62,999 nt of DNA, taken from the NCBI GenBank assembly GCA_009377605.1, contig WHTT01000011.1, positions 1 to 62,999 of the forward strand, in the 5' to 3' direction. The notes under the pieces are model-generated. The model ran no database searches. It was not told the origin of the DNA and worked only from the letters and a program-made list of their open reading frames with translations. This DNA is from Luteitalea sp. (GTDB taxonomy: Bacteria; Acidobacteriota; Vicinamibacteria; Vicinamibacterales; Vicinamibacteraceae). Position 1 is the stretch's first letter, and each line of letters opens with the position of its first letter. The position numbers were made by a program, and so were the translations under genes. Of this stretch, positions 4,155-41,482 are shown in pieces.

Positions 4155-4465
4155 ACGGACGCCACGATACAGGGATAGCGTCTTCCTGACAATGCCTGGC
4201 AGGCTTAGCGGGAGAATGTCAAAGACATCTCCACGCGCCTCTCAGACCAGTCACCTTCCGCCGCCTCGGCGTTGGCGCCGGGGCACGGTATCATCAACCA
4301 AAGACAGCGGTTGGCCAGTCTTCCGTCCTTGCTGCCCCCAGTTTTTCTCCACCCTCCGTGAAGCGTCGAGTTCCGCCCATGCGGAGTAAAACAGAGGCGG
4401 CGCCGAAATGAAAGCACACGCGTACGACGGCGCTCGCCAGCCAGCGTCGCGCGTGCGCCGGTGCC

Positions 4466-4661
4466 GCCGGCAAGCGTGATCGCGGGGGCCGTGCCGCCCC
4501 GGTCGGCCGCGTGGAAACACCACGTGCGGCGCTCACGTGTGGGCGACCCGCCGAGCTCCGTGAGCTCGGCGGCCGCCTGGCCCCGCCCGTGGTGTTACCC
4601 CCTTCGCGGATCACGCGGCCTCCAACGGGGCGGCACGGCCCCCGCGATCACGCCTGCCGGC
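4466..4661 (-). repeat. long-hairpin repeat, copy A
   Basis: This is one of three related elements in the window and is read on the minus strand. The outer stem pairs 4466-4501 with 4626-4661: 36 bp with a single mismatch. Inside are a 9-bp stem (4505-4513 with 4612-4620), a stem using AACACCACG/CGTGGTGTT, and a central 11-bp stem CCGCCGAGCTC (4548-4558 with 4562-4572) with a 3-nt loop. About 115 nt beyond the outer stem, on the minus strand, lies a conserved tail AAAAACTGGGGG (near 4338-4350). No convincing protein is encoded. It faces copy B in inverted orientation. Mobile element, structured RNA or both are possible. Confidence 0.85.
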
Positions 4662-4852
4662 GCTGCCCCCCAGCGCGGCGCACGTGTCTTGCCGCCCCTC
4701 CAATTTGTCTCCATCCCTCCGGAAACACTGAGCGCCACTGCGCGGTGAGGTCGCCGAAGACCACCCGGAGGCGCCCGGTGTGATGTGGACACGTGAGGTG
4801 AGATTGCTCGGCGTGCGAGCGACGTGATGGGGCAGGCCACGCGTTGGTCGCG

Positions 4853-5029
4853 AAAGCGGCGTCGGATGTGGCGGTTGCAGTCGCGTCCCTTCGACGCGGC
4901 GGCGACCAAGCCTTCGACGATCGTGGGGGAAACGCGGAAATATCGGTACCTCGCGCCGCTGCGGAACGCGAGGTCGCGCGTGGTGTCGTTCGCATACTGC
5001 CGTGATGCGACCAGCCGGGTTTCCCGCAT
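4853..5029 (-). pseudogene. KTSC-domain protein remnant
   Basis: From an ATG at 5029 the minus strand encodes about 59 residues that fit the small KTSC domain: a RSGARYRYFRVSP segment followed by GLVAAASKGRDCNRHIRRRF. KTSC proteins are about 60-75 residues; the function is unknown, and a link to nucleic acid or lysyl-tRNA synthetase-associated domains has been suggested. The frame stays open to 4595, running into hairpin copy A without further family similarity, so the natural C-terminus appears lost or extended. No clear ribosome-binding site precedes 5029. It lies exactly between repeat copies A and B. Confidence 0.5.
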
Positions 5030-5207
5030 TGGGTGAAGCGCTCGATCAGCGACGCGCGCAGGACCGGCCCCAGTCTCGCGAGTTGCGCAAGGAGCTTCCG
5101 TCAACGACCGGCGAGTCGTCGAGGCGTGGGATGTGGCATGTCGCACCACGTCCACAACTGCGACGACATGTCACGCGCACGATGCGTGCGATGGTGCATC
5201 GAGGCAG

Positions 5208-5410
5208 CGGCGGCGGGGCGTGCTGCCGCGTGCCCGCGCCGCCCCGTTGGAGGCCGCGTGATCCGCATGAGGGGGTAAAACTACGCGCGGCGCCAGACCG
5301 CCGCCGAGCTCACGGAGCTCGGCAGGTCGTGACACAGGAGCGCCGCGCGTGGTTTTTCCACGCGGCCGACCGGGGCGCGCGGCACCCGTCAGCACGACAC
5401 GCCGGCGGCT
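5208..5410 (+). repeat. long-hairpin repeat, copy B
   Basis: This is the plus-strand copy of the element seen at 4466-4661 and 41147-41332. A 17-bp stem pairs 5277-5293 with 5340-5356 (one G.U), a 9-bp stem pairs 5252-5260 with 5359-5367, and the central CCGAGCTC/GAGCTCGG hairpin is kept. The outer stem (about 5210-5246 with 5370-5404) is bulged but still pairs, using different bases from copies A and C. The tail motif AAAAACTGGGGG lies near 5485-5497. Shared flanking sequence GATGCGTGCGATGGTG occurs near 5181-5196 and upstream of copy C. Confidence 0.85.
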
Positions 5411-5514
5411 CCGCCCACCCGCGCGTAGCCGGTCCTGTTCACCGACTCCACACAGGCCCGCACTCAAATGTTTGGGAGGGCCGACAAAAACTGGGGGACG
5501 GCAAGCTGGCAGGC

Positions 5515-5724
5515 TCAGAGGCGACGGATGCGCGTCGCTCCGTGAACCAGTTGAGCCATCCGTCGCTCGATCTCGGCCTGGGAAAGGATCTTGCCCACTG
5601 CTTCGGCATCCAGGCCCCTTTGAACCTTCTGACGGACGTAGATGTGGTACTGAATATCTTCCAGTGACGCACTCTCGGGAAGGTGCTCGAGCAGGCTTCC
5701 TACTTCTTCCTTAGCGGTCTTCAT
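5515..5724 (-). CDS. orphan antitoxin-like small protein
   Basis: A 69-residue acidic, helical protein (MKTAKEEVGSLLEHLP, then SLEDIQYHIYVRQKV and ILSQAEIERRMAQ) resembles the small antitoxins often paired with ParE/RelE-type toxins; this assignment is from pattern memory only. In intact modules the toxin gene follows immediately. Here the downstream side is instead the tail of hairpin repeat B, so the toxin is missing. The last residues (HGATRIRRL) diverge from the usual ending. No convincing toxin is seen on either side. Confidence 0.6.
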   Translation of the reverse strand: MKTAKEEVGSLLEHLPESASLEDIQYHIYVRQKVQRGLDAEAVGKILSQAEIERRMAQLVHGATRIRRL

Positions 5725-41100: not shown

Positions 41101-41146
41101 ATATCAAGCACACATGCGTGCGATGGTGAATTCGGGCAGCGGCGGC

Positions 41147-41332
41147 GGGGCGTGACCACGGGTGCCAACGCCGTCCCGTTGGAGGCCGCGTGATCGGTGC
41201 CAGGGAGTAAAACCACGGGCGGCGCCCGACCGCCGCCGAGCTCACGGAGCTCGGCGGGTCGCCGCGCGTGAGCGCCGCTCGTGGTTTTTCCACGCGGCCG
41301 ACCGGGACGCGTGGCACCCGTGGTCATGCCCC
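41147..41332 (+). repeat. long-hairpin repeat, copy C
   Basis: The third copy of the element. The outer stem pairs 41147-41167 with 41312-41332 (21 bp, one G.U). CGTCCCG/CGGGACG (41172-41178 with 41303-41309) and GGCCGCGTG/CACGCGGCC (41184-41192 with 41291-41299) follow. AAAACCACG/CGTGGTTTT pairs 41209-41217 with 41280-41288, and the central 11-bp CCGCCGAGCTC hairpin is at 41233-41257. The tail AGAACTGGGGCGG lies about 83 nt downstream. It sits directly upstream of a broken TumE/TumA module. Confidence 0.85.
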
Positions 41333-41482
41333 GTCGGCGGCACCGCCGCGCGTGCGAGCATCCTCCATGTCTCCTCTTCAGGGTGCCGACAGTCAGCGTC
41401 TCAGCGAGAGCCGAGAAGAACTGGGGCGGCACGGCTGTTGGAGCGATTGACAACAGCACGCCGCGTTGGTATAAACTCCAAC

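Follow-up and report, generated by a model that had tools for sequence, protein, structure and literature searches.

The window analysed here, the whole 62,999-nucleotide stretch of Luteitalea sp. DNA, carries an element that most probably (roughly four chances in five) arose by deletion from a transposon of the IS4 family, presumably a cut-and-paste one, which is present whole in the same genome. Its identity as a transposon is well supported by homology to that complete copy. Each end encloses a long hairpin, the core of which is predicted to fold in a strand-specific way and recurs, in a different family of the same order, inside a mobile element of a second kind.

A probable deletion derivative of an IS4-family transposon

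Eight hairpin copies were found in the same genome (G000, 6.79 Mb, a fragmented draft of 382 contigs), and six of them form three inverted pairs. One inverted pair is carried by a complete element, L031:1944-4568 (2625 bp), having terminal inverted repeats of about 370 bp (377 bp) with 84% identity, the tips CTTGCCGCCCCCCAGTTTT ... AAAAACTGGGGGGCGGCAAG (tip form CTTGCCGCCCCC(C)AGTTTT) and a perfect 10-bp direct repeat, ATCAAACGCC, flanking it on both sides. Each terminal repeat contains a hairpin of about 200 nt, located about 75-115 nt inward of the tip. Three genes were found in the element: one for a DUF6788 protein (PF20586, E 1e-26), one for a transposase and an ORF with a KTSC domain (PF13619). 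The transposase matched the IS4 model NF033591 with E 3.3e-26, although the match falls short of that model's equivalog cut-off, and Pfam DDE_Tnp_1 with 21.6 bits versus a cut-off of 23. The IS4 family is marked by a Y-(2)-R-(3)-E-(6)-K motif and target duplications of about 10 bp (PMC2266710), and the exact Y-2-R-3-E-6-K spacing (YRERMHIELTFRDGK) was present in a single unshifted transposase frame of 379 amino acids. Family members typically measure 1150-1750 bp, with lengths up to 5400 bp in IS231, and usually hold the transposase gene alone (PMC2266710); at 2625 bp and with two genes beyond the transposase, L031 is above the typical size and inside the range of IS231.

The window element (Table 1) is homologous by blastn to both ends of L031 and to parts of its interior. 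The minus-strand alignment covers the DUF6788 and KTSC parts and the transposase is absent, indicating an internally deleted copy. As in MITEs and other non-autonomous elements, two ends of an autonomous element are kept and the transposase is not intact. The first-pass annotation had described two inverted hairpins facing away from a KTSC remnant and proposed, among other possibilities, a non-autonomous mobile element, which proved correct: both hairpins exist, with CCGCCGAGCTC/GAGCTCGGCGG at the apex, the KTSC remnant between them is genuine and the third copy, C, is present. The true unit, 4328-5505, extends to longer outer tips than were given. The DUF6788 remnant was missed, the KTSC gene was not seen as the transposon's own, which L031 carries, and the AAAAACTGGGGG tails, found exactly at 5486-5497 and as the complement at 4335-4346, were not recognised as transposon tips. 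Hairpin C is the single surviving end of a truncated relative, the decayed tip of which stops near 41432. No target duplication adjoins the left tip of the window element. The sole second copy in the window of the 10-mer at the right tip, CTGGCAGGCT, is at 4196-4205, 122 bp outside the left tip, as though the left duplication had been displaced.

Table 1. Features of the window that belong to the transposon and its relatives
Feature	Position	Strand	Basis or remark
Whole non-autonomous element	4328..5505	-	1178 bp; gene remnants on minus strand
Left transposon tip CTTGCTGCCCCCAGTTTTT	4328..4346	+	sequence, homology to complete element
Hairpin A, KTSC-side (downstream) terminal repeat	4460..4668	-	covariance model, 195 bits
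KTSC gene remnant	4853..4975	-	PF13619, E 2.5e-9 on window:4595-5155:-; aligns to KTSC of L031
Remnant of DUF6788 gene start	about 5012..5138	-	blastn to complete element; coordinates approximate
Hairpin B, DUF6788-side (upstream) terminal repeat	5202..5412	+	covariance model, 176 bits
Right transposon tip, AAAAACTGGGGGACGGCAAG on plus strand	5486..5505	-	sequence, homology to complete element
CTGGCAGGCT, possible target duplication	5506..5515	.	adjoins right tip
Hairpin C	41134..41344	+	covariance model, 191 bits

Deleted copies and target duplications

Similar deleted elements were found at L030 (954 bp), L090, L091 and L053. In L032 (395 bp) one hairpin remains between the two tips, and L056 is a 198-bp copy with the hairpin mostly gone. 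Exact direct repeats of the length known for the IS4 family flank L031 and L091 (10 bp) and L030, L032 and L053 (10-11 bp), with a one-base offset of one flank in three of these cases; the repeat of L056 is imperfect (10/11) and that of L090 weaker (7 bp). On the same scale, none of 3000 random flank pairs scored at least 8. Direct repeats of about 10 bp thus border elements that carry these ends, which shows that they were inserted as units.

The element's own genes together with the target duplications can explain its mobility. The shared tips would let the transposase mobilise deleted copies in trans, and recombination or slippage between the ends may remove the interior to give short copies, down to the single-hairpin L032. 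Each end contains a near-palindrome, so that one end also approximates a direct repeat of the other, which would lead to deletion of the interior. At the position of the upstream hairpin of L053 merely a short CGTGATCACG palindrome is left, which is what slippage across a palindrome would be expected to leave. The search for an empty site gave none, because the tested flanks (window and L030 flanks in G001, L091 flank in G000) have no synteny in the sister genome, and neither the transposase nor a hairpin end was found in the plasmids searched.

Structure of the hairpins within the genus

Hairpin A and the reverse complement of hairpin B are 88-97% identical by segment and 83% over the whole 208 nt. 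The folding reported for both was confirmed, with z-scores of -9.9 (A) and -4.6 (B) and none of 100 dinucleotide shuffles as good, and the imperfect pairing noted in the apical stem of B was traced to one pair (C-A) near its base. In 13 aligned copies 96.6% of the pair cells were standard pairs. Both sides had changed at 15 pairs, a kind of count that relatedness among copies inflates, versus 6.6 in shuffles, and 15 was reached in none of 500 shuffles; when the pairing partners were slid, the count fell to 1-6. Simple inverted duplication lacking covariation, named beforehand as the reading that would speak against a structured element, is at odds with these counts. Paired changes alone could be explained also by templated repair of palindromes. 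The stem sequence is largely invariant across all copies. On the tip-3' strand of the genus hairpins, G-U exceeded A-C by 19 to 9, counted by pair (p 0.09), which is a lean, and no proof, in favour of RNA from the strand that leads outward past the tip.

Rfam 15 gave no match at gathering in the window and nothing on the hairpins of L091, L127, L130 and L134 at E up to 5. An intrinsic terminator at the hairpins was rejected, the signal being no better than chance, and no promoter signal beyond chance was found there.

The same core in other lineages

A covariance model of the hairpin was run on 40 genomes and afterwards on an overlapping set of 90. Copies were found solely in G000, G001, G017 and G007 of the genomes searched, so the earlier concern that no further copies might exist is answered both within the genome and in its relatives. 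About 20 hits came from G017, a genome of a different family in the same order (best E 7e-18), and one from G007, of a third family (E 4.5e-11). The shared core is about 139-140 nt long. Independently, blastn matched nt ~125-263 of the C81 element to G017 copies at about 64-70% identity (best E 3e-9), and the outer arms beyond the core were unrelated between the two. A DNA search of 198 relatives returned short hits at most outside the genus, the full-length G017 and G007 copies coming from the covariance model alone, and viral contigs contained no exact core patterns.

Cores from the three lineages align nearly without gaps, and a three-way junction fits in all of them. The core is ordered as a GGCCGCG stem, a one-sided bulge, stem 3, a junction strand bearing GAC, the apical stem, a small TCGC-N5-GYGA helix and the return strands. 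The apical stem has a swapped sequence yet remains paired, being CCGCCGAGCTC in the genus, CCGCGCAGGTC in G017 and CCGCGCAGCTC in G007. Cross-lineage pairing held in 497 of 518 cells, in a register set by hand because the MAFFT register shifts by one base between lineages, and without a shuffle control of its own. The TCGC-N5-GYGA helix is confined to one arm, with 107 of 116 cells paired. Two separate compensatory changes in it were found, one in L125 (TTGC/GCAA) and one in window copy B, where the outer C-G is converted to T-A at the last pair and another pair is broken. In many copies this helix depends on a G-U pair, which reads A-C on the opposite strand. The small helix being on one arm only, the fold is strand-specific, and the core is, as judged by sequence comparison, a conserved strand-specific fold of long stem, three-way junction, apical stem and TCGC-N5-GYGA helix.

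In G017 the core lies inside stand-alone MITEs of 182-184 bp (L118-L129) with 20-bp ends, GGTAGTGGGTCAGTTTGGTG. Perfect 8-bp direct repeats flank five of the 12, and one more has a 7/8 repeat; 8/8 is expected by chance at about 5e-5 per pair. Such a core-bearing MITE is, going by its sequence, a mobile element of a different kind from the IS4 transposon, and an autonomous partner of L118-L129 was not found. At L119:2044-2396 the contig end folds back on its own flank around the hairpin (82% self-inverted over 363 bp), probably because the palindrome was misassembled. Another G017 copy, L134:1998-2201, has variant ends (GGGAGTG...) and a stem base, GCCAGCGCTGCCCCGTTGGAGGC, closer to the genus hairpins than those of its neighbours are; its apex is different and the small helix is not evident. 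L131:1929, also of G017, starts with GGTAGTGGGTCAG and continues differently (ACCGCTATACGGC), and is perhaps a second element with the same ends.

Relatives without hairpins and two types of ends

L045, an element from an Acidobacteria MAG, has a 70%-identical transposase, the same tips and the order DUF6788-transposase-KTSC; neither hairpins nor a visible target duplication were found in it. The named relatives L045 and L046 point to Acidobacteria as the phylum of the host. L052, from the same genome, has a left end with the same tips and without the hairpin. In the more distant L047, L049 and L058 the transposase is preceded by a DUF6788-like ORF, called by BLAST or by eye and not by a Pfam model. 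Since the tips are unchanged in relatives that lack the hairpin, it is probably an addition in one lineage and probably unnecessary for transposition. In sequence the hairpins are of two types, KTSC-side and DUF6788-side, and each of the two genomes of the genus has both, which suggests that each end retained its own hairpin from before the split of the two genomes. The C81 ends are partly homogenised, at 94.6%.

Possible role and origin of the hairpins

The suggestion in the first-pass annotation of a structured RNA or a DNA hairpin substrate gained support from the covariation, the one-armed helix and the recurrence in a second mobile context. The core may represent an undescribed strand-specific three-way-junction RNA (or single-stranded DNA) domain common to unrelated mobile-element families of Acidobacteria, for which we would give somewhat less than even odds. 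If so, it would be a portable module at the ends of IS4-type transposons and the body of stand-alone MITEs. The likeliest role of the hairpin, itself held tentatively, would be that of a structured RNA modulating transcripts that cross the element, by analogy with the effect on transcripts proposed for NEMIS and covered in a review of bacterial MITEs (PMC2229807). It is ranked above a transposase site because the hairpin-less relatives have the same tips. The hairpins could alternatively act as DNA, extruded or single-stranded, binding the transposase, the Cys-rich DUF6788 protein or a host factor and aiding transposition, and their position near the tips at both ends, the invariance of much of the stem sequence, the weakness of the G-U excess favouring RNA and the DUF6788-like ORF beside the transposase in several distant relatives are consistent with this. 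Such a role is nevertheless rather unlikely, given that the hairpin is absent from relatives with DUF6788, the same tips and, in L045, the same transposase type, and that the core is also found in a mobile element with unrelated ends. The imperfect target duplication of the ~200-bp L056, where the hairpin is mostly gone, points the same way, although the loss may postdate insertion.

Still less credence is given to the absence of any function, with templated repair and conversion between the ends keeping the palindromes matched. Such repair of imperfect palindromes occurs in bacteria and would yield paired changes, and the C81 ends do appear homogenised; however, neither a one-armed helix with compensatory changes of its own nor an asymmetric junction conserved in three lineages is readily explained in this manner. 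The origin of the hairpin could lie in the capture of a MITE, a G017-like palindromic element having been inserted in one IS4 end and copied to the other, and this is compatible with either an RNA or a DNA role. Restriction of the similarity to the ~139-nt core, with unrelated outer arms, the stand-alone G017 MITEs with their 8-bp target duplications and the existence of ends without a hairpin make such a capture a real possibility, short of a likely one, since the hairpin borders in the IS4 elements show neither target duplication nor MITE ends.

Comparison with known mobile elements

IS4 elements and RNA-folding MITEs are already known kinds. The transposon resembles IS4, including IS231 and its mobile insertion cassettes, in its YREK DDE transposase, duplications of about 10 bp, ends starting with CT and deleted passive copies; it differs in the extra DUF6788 and KTSC genes and in terminal repeats of about 370 bp that hold folded domains of about 200 nt. 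We know of no described IS4 member with such domains in its terminal repeats, and no description of hairpin-bearing IS4 ends was found in the literature consulted, mostly titles and abstracts. The MITEs ERIC, Correia (NEMIS) and RUP are similarly short and non-autonomous, with inverted repeats, target duplications and transcripts predicted as long stem-loops, and those reviewed are about 100-200 bp, mostly A+T-rich, with TA termini (PMC2229807), whereas the present elements are G+C-rich, have 8- or 10-bp duplications and a three-way junction, and share the core between two element types. As in REP/REPIN (PMC3733652), palindromes flank a transposase gene, and GGTAG starts the G017 MITEs. The elements fall outside that group, however, as the transposase is of the DDE and not the tyrosine (HUH) type, direct target duplications are present and the hairpins are far longer. 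As far as our searches show, what is new is that the terminal repeats hold folded domains and that one core occurs in two element types. One core with its shape conserved while the stems change sequence, in two element types, makes shared fold modules testable, and opens the question of RNA-level or DNA-fold modules of mobile elements that do more than mark ends.

With its three genes (DUF6788, transposase, KTSC), the IS4-type element also offers a concrete setting for two poorly understood protein families. No paper on DUF6788 was found in the literature search, and no solved structure matched the transposase or DUF6788 by sequence. At L031:4030-4060 an apparent frameshift at a C run splits the KTSC ORF, due to either decay or an assembly error. 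Just before the DUF6788 start there is a palindrome-like motif of the CGTAACACTTGTGCGAATGTTA type (L031:2270-2306, L052:2018-2045, L045:287-313), with an inverted copy at the other end in L031; it is kept even in the hairpin-less elements and may be an operator or binding site.
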